From Sulfurovum sp. (GTDB taxonomy: Bacteria; Campylobacterota; Campylobacteria; Campylobacterales; Sulfurovaceae), in assembly GCA_027081115.1 (NCBI GenBank), contig JALWLD010000057.1:110397-174396 (forward strand): a stretch of 64,000 bases of DNA, in the 5' to 3' direction. Below, piece after piece: positions 54,948-64,000 of the stretch; position 1 is the first letter of the stretch; each line of letters opens with the position of its first letter. The notes below the pieces were generated by a model. The model saw only the letters and a program-made list of their open reading frames with translations, was not told the origin of the DNA and made no database searches. The position numbers and the translations under genes were made by a program.

Positions 54948-56120
54948 TTAGTAGTTTGCGTTTTCATTTTGTGGGTATTCAGGGTGGCAGTATGCTGCAC
55001 CAAGAGAACAACATCCTTCTGTAACTCCTAGGTTCTTGAGTCCATTGTCAAATGCCCAGTAGTGATTATAACTTCCTGAGAGTAAAACATTCCATGCTGC
55101 TATAAGATCTTGTGCATCTACTTCTTGGGCAATGGTTATCTCATCTAGGAGGTCATTTACATCCAGCACTTCCACTTTACATCCAACTTCGAGTGCTGTT
55201 TGCTGTGACTGGGTACCTTCTGCATAGAGTGAATCATAAAGATCTTGAACTTCCTGTACACCAAACTCACCTGGTGCAAATGCTCTAAGCTCTGCCTCTG
55301 AGTAGTTCTCTGTGTAGTCTACAAGGTTGGTAATGTTCAGATCATATCTTTGTACCAATTCTTCAACGAGTGCTTCGTGTCTTGTTTCAGATTGTGTAGC
55401 AATAGTTTCAAGTTCCTGTGTTGGGTAAATGACGTTGAGTTCAAGATAGAGGTCTTTAGCCATTTTCTCTTCATTCCACATAAAGGCAATAGTATATTTC
55501 TGTGCATCTGTCAAGTTTGACATTGGATATAAAGAAAAATCAACACCATTGGCTCCTTGGTAGTCATAGAGCAGTTCTCTCATAGTCTCTCTTAAGTGGT
55601 TTTGTGCTTCAGTCTGTGTACGTATCTGATTTCTGATAGTATTACCCGCATAGACAAGTAGGTTTTCAGCAGTAAATGTTTCTGCTTCTAAAGCCTCTTT
55701 ATCACTGTCAGAGACCTGAATACCATTGTTAAGATTATTATCTGTATCCAGTGACTGTAAGAGTTGTGCCATCGCAGTGACTTGGGCATTCATAACTTCT
55801 GTTCTGGCTACACCTACAATATCTTGAGGAAATACATATCCGTCCTGTGGTACAGTTGCCACTTCTCCAAGTACAAGATTACCAAGTCTAAAACGGATTT
55901 GCTGCATATTTTGACAGCTAAATGCACCATCTGGTCCAGTTACTTTATCGTTAACACCGTCTGCAAGACAGTCATAGTCTACATTACTTACCGCAGAATC
56001 TACGAGGTATGCTGTTGTTAAGCTATCAACCGTTGTATCTGTAGAGCTACTTCCACATCCTACCAATGTTGCCATAGCTGCTAGTGTAATTGTTGAACCA
56101 ATAAGGTATTTTTTCATCAT
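54948..56120 (-). CDS. DUF2202 domain (ferritin-like) lipoprotein
   Basis: Lipobox LVGC; NEEKMAKDLYLEL, ETRHEALVEELVQRY, SGSYNHYWAFDNGL. Confidence 0.85.
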   Translation of the reverse strand: MMKKYLIGSTITLAAMATLVGCGSSSTDTTVDSLTTAYLVDSAVSNVDYDCLADGVNDKVTGPDGAFSCQNMQQIRFRLGNLVLGEVATVPQDGYVFPQDIVGVARTEVMNAQVTAMAQLLQSLDTDNNLNNGIQVSDSDKEALEAETFTAENLLVYAGNTIRNQIRTQTEAQNHLRETMRELLYDYQGANGVDFSLYPMSNLTDAQKYTIAFMWNEEKMAKDLYLELNVIYPTQELETIATQSETRHEALVEELVQRYDLNITNLVDYTENYSEAELRAFAPGEFGVQEVQDLYDSLYAEGTQSQQTALEVGCKVEVLDVNDLLDEITIAQEVDAQDLIAAWNVLLSGSYNHYWAFDNGLKNLGVTEGCCSLGAAYCHPEYPQNENANY

Positions 56121-57664: not shown

Positions 57665-58114
57665 ATGCCAGTAGAACAGATCAAAAATATTGTAGATTAT
57701 GGAATTATAGGATTACTTGTCTTTTTGTCTTTCCTCACTTTTGCCCTTGCCATAGAACGGATTCTTTTTTACCGATCGGTAAAAGTAGAAGAGTATAGTC
57801 ATGAGAAAGAGTTGGAACTTGATCTCTCCAAGAACTTGCCGACTATCGCTTCGATTGGGGTAAATGCACCGTATATTGGTCTATTGGGTACAGTTATTGC
57901 GATCATTCTTACTTTCTATATTATCGGTGATCAGCAAGATACTATTGACCCGGGTGAGATCATGAAACACCTGGCCTTGGCACTAAAAGCAACGGCTGCT
58001 GGGCTTGTTGTGGCTATTCCTGCTACTGTATTCTACAATGCATTGCTTACTAAGGTAGACAGGATTCTCTCAGAGTGGGAGATCCATCAGGACAAAAAAG
58101 GTCTTAGAAAATAA
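57665..58114 (+). CDS. exbB: TonB-system energizer ExbB
   Basis: MotA/TolQ/ExbB family: APYIGLLGTVIAIILTF...LALALKATAAGLVVAIPATVFYN. Confidence 0.9.
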   Translation: MPVEQIKNIVDYGIIGLLVFLSFLTFALAIERILFYRSVKVEEYSHEKELELDLSKNLPTIASIGVNAPYIGLLGTVIAIILTFYIIGDQQDTIDPGEIMKHLALALKATAAGLVVAIPATVFYNALLTKVDRILSEWEIHQDKKGLRK

Positions 58115-58488
58115 TGAGACGAGAACGTTTTGACAAGATGAACGTTGTCCCGTTCATCGATATTGTTCTGGTTCTTTTGGTCATTGTTTTGGCAACAGCT
58201 TCGTTTGTTAACAACAAGACTATCAAGATCGACCTGCCATCTGCTTCTACTAAGAAACAAGAAGATAAGAAAAATCTTATTATTGCTATAGATAAAGATG
58301 GGAAATACTTCTTTAATCAGGAAGAACTTCCTTTAGACTCTATTAAAGAGAAACTTGCTGAACTCGACCCGAAAAAAGATACCGTTTCTTTACATACAGA
58401 CAAAAAAACAGATTTCCATTACTTTGTGGATGTGATTGACTTTATGAAAGAGAAGGGTTTCCAGAACATCTCTATTGTAACAAAGTAA
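58114..58488 (+). CDS. exbD: Biopolymer transport protein ExbD
   Basis: MNVVPFIDIVLVLLVIVLATASF. Confidence 0.93.
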   Translation: MRRERFDKMNVVPFIDIVLVLLVIVLATASFVNNKTIKIDLPSASTKKQEDKKNLIIAIDKDGKYFFNQEELPLDSIKEKLAELDPKKDTVSLHTDKKTDFHYFVDVIDFMKEKGFQNISIVTK

Positions 58489-58504: not shown

Positions 58505-59230
58505 GTGAAAAAGCATCGCTATAAAGTCTCTTTTTCCTTAACAACTCTTATTTATGCCTCTGTGTTTTTAATCTATGTCGTGATGATGGGAGAGCGTTTC
58601 ATTGTTTCTCAAAAAGAGAAAGACAAGACACTAAACCTTTCTCTCTCCCAGTTTGTACCAGCAGTTATAGAACAGCCTAAAGAAGAGGAAGTACCTGAAC
58701 CCAAAGAACCTGTGGTTGAAGAAGAGCCAGAACCTGAAATTATAGAACCAGAGCCTATTCCTGTTCCCGAGGTAGAAGAGAAGCCTGTACCTGAACCGGT
58801 AGTTATTAAAAAAGTAGAGAAAAAACCAGAACCCAAAAAGATTGTTAAGAAAAAAGTTAAAAAGAAAGCTGTCAAAAAAAGAGTCAAGAAAAAGAAAACT
58901 AAAGCATGTAGAGCTTCCTCCAGACGGGCTACCTCACGTAGAATAGATCCTAACAAAAAAAGTCGATTTCTCGCAAATCTCAGAGCTAAAATAAACAGAG
59001 GGAAATCATATCCACGAATTGCAAAAAAAAGAGGAATGCAGGGGACAATAAAAATCTGTTTTATCATTTTAAAAAATGGACATGTTGGAAACATTACTCT
59101 TAGTGGTCCAAAAGTTTTCCATAATTCTGCAAAAAGAGCAGTAAAAAAAGCATTCCCTCTTAACGTAAAAAATGCACCACTTTCTTTGCCTACTACCGTA
59201 AATCTTTCTTTACGTTATAAGTTACGTTAA
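58505..59230 (+). CDS. tonB: TonB protein (GTG start)
   Basis: N-terminal TM, Pro/Glu then Lys-rich spacer, C-terminal YPRIAKKRGMQGTIKICFIILKNGHVGNITL. Confidence 0.92.
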   Translation: MKKHRYKVSFSLTTLIYASVFLIYVVMMGERFIVSQKEKDKTLNLSLSQFVPAVIEQPKEEEVPEPKEPVVEEEPEPEIIEPEPIPVPEVEEKPVPEPVVIKKVEKKPEPKKIVKKKVKKKAVKKRVKKKKTKACRASSRRATSRRIDPNKKSRFLANLRAKINRGKSYPRIAKKRGMQGTIKICFIILKNGHVGNITLSGPKVFHNSAKRAVKKAFPLNVKNAPLSLPTTVNLSLRYKLR

Positions 59231-59376
59231 AACCATTAAATTTTCTGCGTGGCTTTGTCTATGAGGGATATTAGATATTTATAATGTTGATTTGCTTATA
59301 AAAGATATAAATTTAACACTAATTTAACACAAGCATGTCATACTCTCTCACAAATAATTCAAGGATGAGGAAAATA

Positions 59377-61440
59377 ATGAAAATACAAACAGGAATAGTA
59401 CTTTCTTTGGCATGCGCAATGTCGCTATATGCTGAACCGGTAGATATGGGAACTATAGATGTTGAGGCAAAAGTTGATACAGAAATCGTTAAAGATGTAC
59501 ATGGTGAAGATATTAAGTCAGCAGACTTGGCAGAGGCACTGTTTAAACAGTCTCCTTCTGTATCACTTGTAAGAAGATCTGGAATCGCCAATGATGTTAT
59601 TGTAAGAGGTCAGAAGAAAGACAACATCAATGTAACGATTGATGGTGTTAAAGTGTATGGTGCCTGTCCAAACAGAATGGACCCACCAGTATCTCACGTA
59701 CTTACCAATAATGTTGATTATATCGAGATCAATGAAGGTCCATATAATGTAGAAGATTTTGGTGTACTCTCTGCAGATGTGAAGATTCATACGATTCAGC
59801 CTAAAGATGAGTTTGAAGGAGATATCAATCTCGGTTTTGGTTCATGGGGTTACAAAAAAGCAGCATTATCAGCTTCTGGAGCTATTACTGAAAATGTAAA
59901 ATTCCTTATCTCTGCTTCTGCTGAAACAAGTGAACAGTATGAGGATGGTGATGGTAATAACTTTGTAGATCAGATACAAAGAGAGATAGATGCAGGAAAA
60001 GCTATACCAACAGTTCAGTATCAAGACCAATATAAAGATATGGATGCCTATACTAAAAAAACAGTCATGGCAAAACTATTTTGGAATATTACTGACAATC
60101 AAGAATTGAGACTCTCTTATACGGGTAACAGATCAGATGATATTCTGTACCCATCTTCAAAAATGGATGCCTTATATGATGACTCTGACTTATTCAATGT
60201 TGAATATATTGCCAAAGATCTTGGAAAGTATTCAAAAGAATTGAATATTCAACTCTATCAATCAGAAGTAGAACATCCAATGTCTACGAAGTATAGATTA
60301 ATGGGTGCTGTAGACTATATGACTCATACATTGACTACTAAAATGCAGGGTGCAAAGATCAAAAACAGTTTTGATGTAGATAATCATACGATTACTGCAG
60401 GTATTGATTATTCTTTACGTAACTGGAATGGATGGTATACGAAGAATGAAATCCTTTTACCAATGGATTACTCTTATAGTATTGATGATGTAGATACAGA
60501 AAATATTGCATTTTTCCTCAAAGATACAATTACTATGGATAAACTTGTGTTAGATCTTGGTTTGAGATATGATGATACAACAATTACGCCTGCTAATAAT
60601 CGTATGAAAATGGTACAGCCCGAAAATGAGTATAATGAGTTAAACGGATATATTTTTGCTACATATAATATGGATAAAGATACAAAGTTATTTGTGGGTG
60701 CAGGAAAATCTTCAAGAGTACCGGATGCTAAAGAGCTTTACTGGATAGGTGCTCCAAAACAGGTTACATTACCTGATGGTTCAATGAAAATGGTTGCACC
60801 TGCTATAGGTACACCTGATCTTGATGCCACGATTAATTATGAAGCGGATATTGGTTTTGAAAAGAAGTTTGAAAATGCAACAGTTAAAGCTAAAGCATTT
60901 TATTCACAACTTGATAATTTTATAGCATATAACGCTTCAAAAGCCGAGAATAAATATGAAAATGTAGATGCAACTATCTACGGATTTGAGTTAAGTGGTA
61001 CATACATTGCTACAGCAGAACTCTATTTTGACTATGGTATGTCTTACCAAAGAGGTGAAAAAGACACTCCTCTAACTGGACAGACAGGTACAGATATGCC
61101 TGAGATCCCACCATTCAAATTTAACGCAGCAGCAAACTATGACTGGGATGAGACACTGAATTTCAGAGCAGAACTCATAGCTTCAGATACTTGGTCAAAC
61201 TATGATTATGAGAATGGAGAACAGGAAATTGATGCATATGGTATCTTAAACCTTAAGGGTGCTAAGCGATGGGGTAACATTGAATTAACTGTTGGTGTGG
61301 ACAATGTATTTGACACAACCTATGCCGTATCAAATACATATTATGACTTGATCTTGTTGCCAACAGGTAGCAATGATGTAGTGATGCTCATGAATGAGCC
61401 TGGGCGTTACTTCTATACAAACCTAAAGTATACGTTCTAA
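59377..61440 (+). CDS. TonB-dependent receptor, OprC/NosA-like (putative copper receptor)
   Basis: Signal peptide, plug with GACPNRMDPPVSHV, later EHPM (HxM), C-terminal FYTNLKYTF. Confidence 0.85.
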   Translation: MKIQTGIVLSLACAMSLYAEPVDMGTIDVEAKVDTEIVKDVHGEDIKSADLAEALFKQSPSVSLVRRSGIANDVIVRGQKKDNINVTIDGVKVYGACPNRMDPPVSHVLTNNVDYIEINEGPYNVEDFGVLSADVKIHTIQPKDEFEGDINLGFGSWGYKKAALSASGAITENVKFLISASAETSEQYEDGDGNNFVDQIQREIDAGKAIPTVQYQDQYKDMDAYTKKTVMAKLFWNITDNQELRLSYTGNRSDDILYPSSKMDALYDDSDLFNVEYIAKDLGKYSKELNIQLYQSEVEHPMSTKYRLMGAVDYMTHTLTTKMQGAKIKNSFDVDNHTITAGIDYSLRNWNGWYTKNEILLPMDYSYSIDDVDTENIAFFLKDTITMDKLVLDLGLRYDDTTITPANNRMKMVQPENEYNELNGYIFATYNMDKDTKLFVGAGKSSRVPDAKELYWIGAPKQVTLPDGSMKMVAPAIGTPDLDATINYEADIGFEKKFENATVKAKAFYSQLDNFIAYNASKAENKYENVDATIYGFELSGTYIATAELYFDYGMSYQRGEKDTPLTGQTGTDMPEIPPFKFNAAANYDWDETLNFRAELIASDTWSNYDYENGEQEIDAYGILNLKGAKRWGNIELTVGVDNVFDTTYAVSNTYYDLILLPTGSNDVVMLMNEPGRYFYTNLKYTF

Positions 61441-61518: not shown

Positions 61519-62607
61519 TCATAAACCACCACGTGTGAACCTTATGGTGTATTTGGTTTTTTCTCTACTTTGCATTCTCATCTCTCCTCCGAGTTGGCCA
61601 TAGACCAGGGTCCGAACAATTTTCAGACCCAGGGTTTGCACATTTTTTCCCATATCAAATCCTTTTCCATTATCTTCAATGATCAATTCGAAATGATCTG
61701 ATTTTTCTTTTAAGTGAAATAGAAACTCTCCCTTTGTCATCAAAAGCATATTTGTAGGCATTGCTGATCAGTTTATTGATAATAAGACCGATGTAAATGG
61801 GTTCCCGCAATGGTAGATGGGCATCAATATCGGTTTCAACAGTGATATCCCTGCCACTCAAGGTCTTGAAGGAGGGTTCCAATATACTCCTGCATATCTA
61901 TCTTTTCAATATTGTTTTTAAGCAGCAGTATATTGTAGGTTTGAGAGATCGCGGAGATCCTGTTCTCCAGATTGAGGAACTTCTCGGTGGTCTGTCTGTC
62001 TTTTATCTCATCGTTTTGAAGTCGTATCCTGGAGAGGATGATCTGAAGGTTGTTCTTGACACAGTGGTCTCTTTGAGCAGTAACTCTTTCATCTGCAACG
62101 CTTCATTTAGTTCTTTGGTTTTTACCAAGACCTCTTCCTATACCAATTCTGTACGATGTTTGTATTCATCCAAAATACGTGTATCCACCTTCTCTTTCTG
62201 AAGGATGATGTAACGGTCTGCAAAGGCCTGGTTGAGTATGAGTGCTTCAAAAGCCGTAGTGAACATGAGTATATTAGTGAAGTTCTGCATGACAGATGTG
62301 AGACCGATAGCATCGAATGATAAGAAGATAAGAGATAAAAATAATGCCGAAACTGGTAATAAAGAGCCTTGCCTGTTTGTGCCCGATCGTGTAGGCATAG
62401 ATACCCGCACTGAGGTTGAATACAATGAACAGTGCGCCTGTGAAGATTACAAAAAGAAGAGGTACTTAAAAAGAGTATCTCCAGAAATGAGACGATAATA
62501 AAACCGTTATAGATATTATAGAGAGGTTTGATAGATTCTATTTTTAAAAAATGCATGGCAAAGAGTGCCACGGTGATCATCCTCAAATTCACTTTTAAAA
62601 CCGGCAT
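61519..62607 (-). pseudogene. Degenerate 7TMR-DISM/HisKA_2-type sensor histidine kinase
   Basis: Fragments in shifting frames: 7TM segment, AFADRYIILQKEKVDT, KELLLKE//HCVKNNLQ, NKLISNAYKYAFDDKG, ELIIEDNGKGFD; several frameshifts and an in-frame TAG at 62138-62140. Confidence 0.85.
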
Positions 62608-62672
62608 GAATAATGCTATTTAAAATTATATTAAAAAAGTGATTATGTCATATTTTTGTCACATGATACGGT

Positions 62673-62678
62673 TATAAT
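62673..62678 (+). promoter_or_regulatory. Putative -10 (TATAAT) for the VWA gene
   Basis: TATAAT 25 nt before the ATG at 62704. Confidence 0.4.
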
Positions 62679-62703
62679 AATATATAAAAAGGAGAAAATG
62701 ATA

Positions 62704-64000
62704 ATGAAAAGATTGTTAATGAGAATAGTACTGATTTTTACAGTATTCATTACAGGTTTAATAGCAGAAGATAATCCGCGTGCAGTCATCATCTTTGATG
62801 CATCGGGGAGTATGTGGGGGCAGATAAACGGTAAAGCCAAAATAGAGATTGCCAGAGATGCGTTGAAAAATGTGGTCAAGGAGTGGAACCCTGCTGTTGA
62901 GTTGGGGCTGACGGTTTACGGACACCGAAAAAAAGGGGACTGTAACGACATTCAAACGGTCATACCCGTAGGTAAAGTTGACAAGAACAATGTCATACGT
63001 ACGGTGATGGACATTAAACCCAAAGGGAAAACACCGATCAGCCGTTCTTTGAGAAAAGTGGCTGATGAGATCAAGTATACCGAAGAGAAAGCGACGATCA
63101 TTCTCATCTCGGACGGGAAAGAGACCTGTGACCCTGACCCCTGTGCTACAGCAAAAGAGTTGGAAAAAGAGGGGATTGATTTTGTGACCCATGTCATCGG
63201 CTTCAATGTGGACAAAAAGACCGACAAGCAGTTGGAGTGTATTGCCCATGCAACAGGAGGAGAGTACTTCTCTGCGAAGAATGCTGCGGCTTTAAATAAG
63301 GCTATGAAAGTCATTGCCAAGAAGGTTGAGGTGGTCACTCCTTCCAAACCAGTGGTAAAGAAGAAAAAACATAACCTGGTAGTGACAGCATCCGAGACTG
63401 AAGGTGGAAAGCTTATAGCGGCAAGCTGTAGCATCTACAATGAAGACAAGAGTGACCATTGGAGTATGACGGTTTACAAAAATAAGGCTGAGTCATACGC
63501 AAAAGAGTTACCTGTCGGAAAATATACGCTCGATTGCACATACAATGTATTTAAAAGAAAAGATATCCCTGTCGAGATCAAAGAGGGGGAAACAAGTAAG
63601 GTGCATGTGGTATTTGCACAGACAGGAAAAGTGTATGCGACAGCAAGAGAGACAGAAGGCGGTAAGCTTATAGATGCATCGTGCAGGATTTACAATGAAG
63701 ATAAAAGCGATTGGTGGAGTCTTGGTGCATATAAGAAAGAGCCAAAGAGTCATAGCAGACAGATTCCTGTTGGGAAATATACCGCAAACTGTACCTACAA
63801 TGTATTTGAGCGAAAAGATATTCCCGTAGAGGTTAAAGCGGGAGAGATGGCACATGTGGATGTGGTCTTTGGTCAGACAGGAAAAGTGTATGCGACAGCA
63901 AGAGAGACAGAAGGCGGTAAGCTTATAGATGCATCGTGCAGGATTTACAATGAAGATAAAAGCGATTGGTGGAGTCTTGGTGCATATAAGAAAGAGCCAA
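62704..64000 (+). CDS. Secreted VWA-domain protein with C-terminal tandem repeats, 3' truncated by window
   Basis: Not in the ORF track because no stop occurs before the edge. MKRLLMRIVLIFTVFITGLIAEDNPRAVIIFDASGSMWGQ...; DxSxS MIDAS; SD AAGGAG 9 nt before ATG 62704. Confidence 0.88.
   Translation, partial: MKRLLMRIVLIFTVFITGLIAEDNPRAVIIFDASGSMWGQINGKAKIEIARDALKNVVKEWNPAVELGLTVYGHRKKGDCNDIQTVIPVGKVDKNNVIRTVMDIKPKGKTPISRSLRKVADEIKYTEEKATIILISDGKETCDPDPCATAKELEKEGIDFVTHVIGFNVDKKTDKQLECIAHATGGEYFSAKNAAALNKAMKVIAKKVEVVTPSKPVVKKKKHNLVVTASETEGGKLIAASCSIYNEDKSDHWSMTVYKNKAESYAKELPVGKYTLDCTYNVFKRKDIPVEIKEGETSKVHVVFAQTGKVYATARETEGGKLIDASCRIYNEDKSDWWSLGAYKKEPKSHSRQIPVGKYTANCTYNVFERKDIPVEVKAGEMAHVDVVFGQTGKVYATARETEGGKLIDASCRIYNEDKSDWWSLGAYKKEP
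63619..64000 (+). repeat. In-frame tandem repeat, 255-bp (85-aa) period
   Basis: 63619-63745 and 63874-64000 are identical by eye (127 bp); a diverged earlier unit starts near 63379. Confidence 0.9.

Follow-up and report, generated by a model that had tools for sequence, protein, structure and literature searches.

To our knowledge, only few proteins are known that import copper across the outer membrane. OprC from Pseudomonas aeruginosa binds copper via Cys143 and Met147 in the plug as well as His323 and Met325 in the barrel, whereby a further residue, Met286, coordinates silver (Ag2) within the methionine track (PMC8610252). For NosA from Pseudomonas stutzeri, it has been debated for decades whether it serves the N2O reductase, and its role in NosZ maturation is disputed, since one strain of P. 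stutzeri requires NosA and another one does not (PMC8610252). In the case of ZnuD from Neisseria, the zinc site is located 2.8 A from the OprC copper site when both structures are superposed (PMC8610252).

Here, we analyzed a TonB-dependent receptor gene from a stretch of 64,000 nucleotides (contig C57, positions 110397–174396), hereafter called the window, which originates from a 2.45 Mb draft genome of Sulfurovum sp. By analogy to P. aeruginosa OprC, the encoded protein is very probably an outer-membrane copper importer that works in the same way. Support for this reading comes from the homology to OprC, from the four ligand positions, which match exactly and are invariant, and from the gene neighborhoods of relatives. 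In the literature searched, which was mainly non-subscription, no OprC-like receptor is described from Sulfurovum or other Campylobacterota, and the main text of a copper-stress study on Nitratiruptor mentions neither TonB nor a receptor (PMC10092412). As far as checked, the kind of protein is already known and the variant is new, the new elements being a sister clade that spans the phylum, three invariant methionines, and a gene order with nosZ, NosL, or cco genes.

The Receptor Gene and Its Surroundings in the Window

The receptor gene is preceded by a set of TonB system genes in the order exbB-exbD-tonB-receptor, for which the following features were assigned:

57665–58114, plus strand: exbB (TIGR02805, 161 bits, over the cut-off)
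58114–58488, plus strand: exbD (PF02472, 108 bits)
58505–59230, plus strand: tonB, directly upstream of the receptor gene (PF03544, 41 bits)
59377–61440, plus strand: 687-aa TonB-dependent receptor from the Campylobacterota clade of the OprC superfamily, predicted to import copper
59377–59433, plus strand: signal peptide MKIQTGIVLSLACAMSLYA, predicted by eye from the sequence
59446–59469, plus strand: candidate Ton box MGTIDVEA, placed after the signal peptide by inspection

The start at 59377 was favored over the start of a longer ORF at 59335, since AAGGATGAGG, which resembles a ribosome-binding site, stands just in front of the ATG at 59377. Both receptor domains were recognized above their Pfam cut-offs, with 34.9 bits for the plug (PF07715) and 139.9 bits for the barrel (PF00593, TonB_dep_Rec_b-barrel). 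Altogether, the genome encodes four TonB-dependent receptors with a plug domain, the window receptor included, as well as two TonB genes, the second of which is located elsewhere. The nearest relatives, as judged by the receptor gene, are Sulfurovum MAGs with at most 81% identity. A tonB gene directly before the receptor gene is found in 30 of 153 loci, and the complete exbB-exbD-tonB-receptor order is found in 11 of them.

No copper genes were detected among the genes scanned near the window receptor. The neighbors on the near side comprise a cluster for RND/MacB-type efflux, MltB, a DUF2202 protein, and a two-component system, and the nosZ and ccoN genes as well as the best NosL match of the genome are located on contigs other than that of the window. 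The DUF2202 protein is encoded near the TonB cluster on the minus strand (54948–56120), and relatives of it occur upstream of tonB in several Sulfurovum loci (L006, L007, L013, L016). Between the receptor gene and the next gene, the minus strand harbors histidine-kinase-like ORF pieces in differing frames (61519–62607), with a HATPase_c match of 27 bits in 61519–61761. These pieces could represent a broken or frameshifted sensor kinase, or else an assembly error. The plus-strand region from 62656 to 64000 encodes a protein that has a von Willebrand-like start as well as tandem repeats (VYATARETEGGKLIDASCRIYNEDKSDWWSLGAYKKEP...) and runs past the end of the window.

The Receptor Carries the Four Copper Ligands of OprC

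An earlier note, made from the sequence alone, had pointed out a CxxxM motif within GACPNRMDPP in the plug and an HxM motif within VEHPMS in the barrel, and had equated these with the pairs of copper ligands from OprC. Both motifs were found in the respective domains, and the ligand pairs named in the note agree with the published ones (PMC8610252). Together with a third position, they were assigned as follows:

59665–59679, plus strand: CxxxM of the plug, C97–M101 (687-aa numbering), corresponding to OprC Cys143/Met147 (profile alignment, codons checked)
60163–60165, plus strand: Met263 (277 in the 701-aa numbering), corresponding to OprC Met286 (profile alignment)
60274–60282, plus strand: HxM of the barrel, H300–M302 (687-aa numbering), corresponding to OprC His323/Met325 (profile alignment, codons checked)

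When the residues were counted in the profile alignment to OprC, which the earlier note had proposed as a check, CPNRM and HPM of the receptor fell exactly on the four copper ligands. A PDB search with the single receptor sequence yielded OprC entries only (E 2e-20), and in a PDB search with a profile built from 15 relatives, OprC was the top match with an E value of 2.5e-32, followed by PhuR with 1.3e-14. In order to estimate how often such motifs arise by chance, the receptor sequence was shuffled 20,000 times. A C...M within residues 1–160 combined with an H.M further on occurred in 0.2% of the shuffles, and the same combination with the H.M near its place in OprC occurred in 0.01%. On the basis of these frequencies and the invariance of the ligands in relatives, a chance motif was ruled out. 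Neither C...M nor H.M nor any cysteine is present in the three remaining TonB-dependent receptors that the genome encodes.

Conservation of the Site Across the Campylobacterota

A phylum-wide search revealed the receptor family in 140 of 397 Campylobacterota genomes, which belong to 37 of 68 genera. Conservation was analyzed across 154 full-length relatives with a median identity of 46% and a minimum of 23%. At the ligand positions, the cysteine is present in 153 of the 154 relatives, and both methionines as well as the histidine are present in all of them. The sole exception (L013, 7992–10028) has a glycine in place of the ligand cysteine (GAGPNRMDPP); there are Ns nearby in this record, and the exchange is likely a sequencing fault. 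Met263, the equivalent of OprC Met286, is also a methionine in 154 of 154 relatives. Overall, only 3 of the 24 methionines in the window protein are invariant, namely those that correspond to OprC Met147, Met286, and Met325, and H300 is the only invariant one among its six histidines. This pattern is the one expected under selection for a metal site.

The extracellular methionine track of the receptor looks thin at the sequence level, as just one OprC loop methionine appears to be matched: Met329 (701-aa numbering) is the equivalent of OprC Met343 and is a methionine here and in 87 of the 154 relatives. Such a thin track leaves space for a chelate, and the uptake of chelated copper is known from other TonB-dependent receptors for copper (PMC12914433). 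It might therefore be that the receptor takes up copper bound to a chelator, such as a chalkophore or small acids, in a manner like MbnT or CrtA, instead of bare ions. We consider this improbable, since the invariant ligand set consists of the four residues of OprC, which is a receptor for ionic copper, whereas a complete CxxxM-HxM metal site would be dispensable for a receptor of the chelate type. Moreover, no solved chelate-type copper receptor was among the matches of the PDB profile search.

Predicted Fold and Family Placement

The AlphaFold model of the receptor, for which 15 sequences were used as input, reached a mean pLDDT of 72.6 and a pTM of 0.75. The plug is weak in this model, with residues 98–108 around the CxxxM motif being under a pLDDT of 50, and because of the poor plug the model was used for the overall fold only. 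When it was submitted to Foldseek, the first 28 matches were all OprC chains (E about 1e-33, TM about 0.75–0.8), and haem and enterobactin receptors came after OprC in the list. The modeling of the fold, also proposed in the earlier note, gave OprC as the best match, and a convergence of the four ligands on one site is predicted from the homology to the OprC crystal structures.

The haem and enterobactin receptors further down the fold list, together with a score of 127 bits for the haemoglobin/transferrin/lactoferrin model TIGR01786, which is under its cut-off, could be taken as a hint for an ordinary ferric-siderophore or haem receptor in which the motifs are incidental. We give hardly any credence to this explanation, and the candidate was ruled out, since OprC was the best scorer in every comparison, the motifs are invariant, and the other receptors of the genome have neither of them. 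The closest characterized homologue by sequence, profile, and fold is OprC instead of a siderophore receptor, which supports the suggestion of the earlier note that the substrate is copper rather than a ferric siderophore.

The curated equivalog model for OprC/NosA-type TonB-copper receptors (TIGR01778) gave 170 bits and did not reach its cut-off of 472.45. Because this score is far below the threshold, the window receptor was filed under a sister subfamily that works like OprC rather than under the curated family itself. In a quick maximum-likelihood tree, which was calculated with no bootstrap, has long branches flagged, and lacks the OprC sequence of P. aeruginosa, seven OprC-type rows (99) are sister to 58 Campylobacterota rows (100), and both the OprC-type and the window-type clades stand apart from five siderophore-type or other receptors (98). 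The window receptor is placed outside of the OprC-type clade on this tree. The latter clade contains proteins from Thioclava, Cupriavidus, Pandoraea (annotated as copper receptor), and Burkholderia, which share the C...M and carry DHxM, as well as a few Campylobacterota copies. Three loci from genus g14 or its family f6 (L056, L062, L068) harbor an OprC-type and a window-type receptor gene in tandem, whereby the OprC-type receptor has the motif GGCGGRMDPP...VDHIMDN.

Copper-Enzyme Genes Adjoin the Receptor Gene in Relatives

The N2O reductase NosZ and the cbb3 oxidase are copper enzymes, and genes for both of them adjoin the receptor gene in a part of the relatives. The order tonB-receptor-nosZ is present in five Sulfurovum loci (L011, L154, L156, L161, L162), in which nosZ is the next gene on the same strand and is located 227–385 bases after the receptor gene. 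The linked nosZ is of the Sec-dependent (clade II) type, with the one from L161 encoding a protein of 866 aa that scores 859 bits vs. a cut-off of 625, and after it come nosD and further genes similar to those of a nos cluster. In two other loci (L014, L163), the receptor gene is followed by genes for two NosL-type proteins and a MacB-type ABC permease, and in another two (L136, L177), related NosL-type genes are oriented divergently from the receptor gene. Here, the NosL assignment was made by Pfam for the first L014 protein and elsewhere by similarity to the L014 proteins. Furthermore, the receptor gene is located upstream of ccoNOQP, encoding the cbb3 oxidase, in 13 loci from two families (f8, f11). 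The ten f8 loci have same-strand genes up to ccoN, mostly via genes for a DsbD_2 membrane protein and a two-component pair, and in the three f11 loci ccoNOQP comes directly after the receptor gene. Both the nosZ linkage and the cco linkage have at least two origins each (starred branches of the tree). In genomes of such size, the chance of a given gene being the next gene is about one in two thousand, and given this chance the recurring linkage to the two chief copper enzymes of these bacteria constitutes independent evidence for copper.

The same neighborhoods bear on the identity of the metal. The receptor might serve another soft or borderline metal via the same site, with silver being a by-product or zinc being bound as in ZnuD, and the nearness of the ZnuD zinc site to the OprC copper site (PMC8610252) indicates that this fold is able to change its metal. 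However, Cys, Met, His, and Met make up a copper-type ligand set, and the neighbors in relatives encode copper enzymes or maturation proteins (nosZ, nosD, NosL, ccoNOQP), so that we regard a metal other than copper as highly unlikely.

In most of the 153 loci, no gene for a copper enzyme adjoins the receptor gene. The commonest neighbors throughout the phylum encode alanine racemase, a peptidyl-arginine-deiminase-like protein, GcpE, DnaB, and ACP/FabF, which are house-keeping genes that hold no substrate information. Co-occurrence over the 397 genomes is not strict, with the receptor being present in 140 and nosZ over the cut-off in 126 of them, and family f3 includes many nosZ genomes but has no receptor match in this set. 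Because of this loose co-occurrence and the presence of nosZ without the receptor in f3, the receptor is not an obligate partner of NosZ.

Two further arrangements were observed beside the receptor gene. The region directly after it in L014 (10137–15218) is an unusual multi-NosL operon, which encodes three NosL-like proteins, one of them with a Cys/Met-rich N-terminus, as well as a MacB-type ABC exporter and a 345-aa membrane protein. In L136 (6653–12193) and L171 (10880–16072), a gene for a siderophore-class TonB receptor without the motifs lies beside the copper receptor gene and is followed by genes for a DsbD_2 membrane protein and a large Fer4_5/DUF4198 protein, which has a NosL domain in L136. 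This is perhaps another metal-uptake set.

Proposed Route of Copper and Its Significance

If the receptor works like OprC, Cu(I), and perhaps Cu(II), would be caught outside of the cell, probably aided by the invariant methionine that matches OprC Met286, and would be held by Cys97/Met101 of the plug and His300/Met302 of the barrel wall. The ExbB-ExbD-TonB complex encoded upstream would then pull the plug and part the two half-sites, upon which copper would pass into the periplasm, where it could feed N2O reductase and cbb3 oxidase. Binding and transport of the metal as well as the place where the copper ends up are predicted from OprC or from gene order, and that NosZ and cbb3 oxidase make use of it is deduced from the gene order in relatives. 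On balance, we lean towards a wider reading, in which an OprC sister subfamily that curated models do not name extends across the Campylobacterota and would provide, in several lineages, an operon-level copper route for a particular copper enzyme. Meant here are the order tonB-receptor-nosZ, which would supply N2O reduction in Sulfurovum, and the order receptor-ccoNOQP, which would supply the cbb3 oxidase in two further families.

Sulfurovum and related bacteria live as sulfur oxidizers at vents and seeps and in sulfidic sediments. Many of these bacteria have nosZ, and the sulfide in such habitats should strip copper from solution. If the proposed route is true, outer-membrane copper uptake would be built into, and would limit, N2O reduction and microaerobic respiration. 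The location of a receptor with an OprC-type site directly before nosZ or ccoN makes this copper supply testable by a single deletion. In addition, many proteins that are now likely labelled merely as “TonB-dependent receptor” can be assigned a predicted substrate.

Comparison With Known Receptors

Like OprC from P. aeruginosa (PDB 6fok, 6z8q, and others), the window receptor has the fold of a TonB-dependent receptor, and it carries CxxxM-HxM at identical alignment positions, with Met286 being kept as well. However, both proteins share about 18–19% identity over the structural alignment, and the window receptor belongs to a separate Campylobacterota clade and scores below the TIGR01778 cut-off. 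In the extracellular loop from which the OprC track is built, it appears to have a smaller number of methionines, and it has its own exbB-exbD-tonB genes upstream. NosA from P. stutzeri is likewise a TonB-dependent receptor with a CxxxM-HxM site and a genetic link to N2O reductase (PMC8610252), which has its counterpart in the five Sulfurovum genomes with the receptor gene immediately before nosZ. In contrast to the NosA system, the nosZ linked to the Campylobacterota receptor is of the Sec-dependent (clade II) type, and NosA is about 60% identical to OprC (PMC8610252), whereas the window receptor is far less so. ZnuD from Neisseria shares with OprC the location of the metal site within the fold (PMC8610252) but is a zinc receptor, and it was absent from the PDB profile search and from the first 50 fold matches listed. 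The CrtA family (B. pertussis BfrG, P. aeruginosa PA0434) resembles the window receptor in that it represents copper-linked TonB-dependent receptors that are tied to haem-copper oxidases, but it is reported to import chelated Cu(II) and to constitute a sequence cluster distinct from OprC in the published network (PMC12914433). The window receptor groups with OprC.
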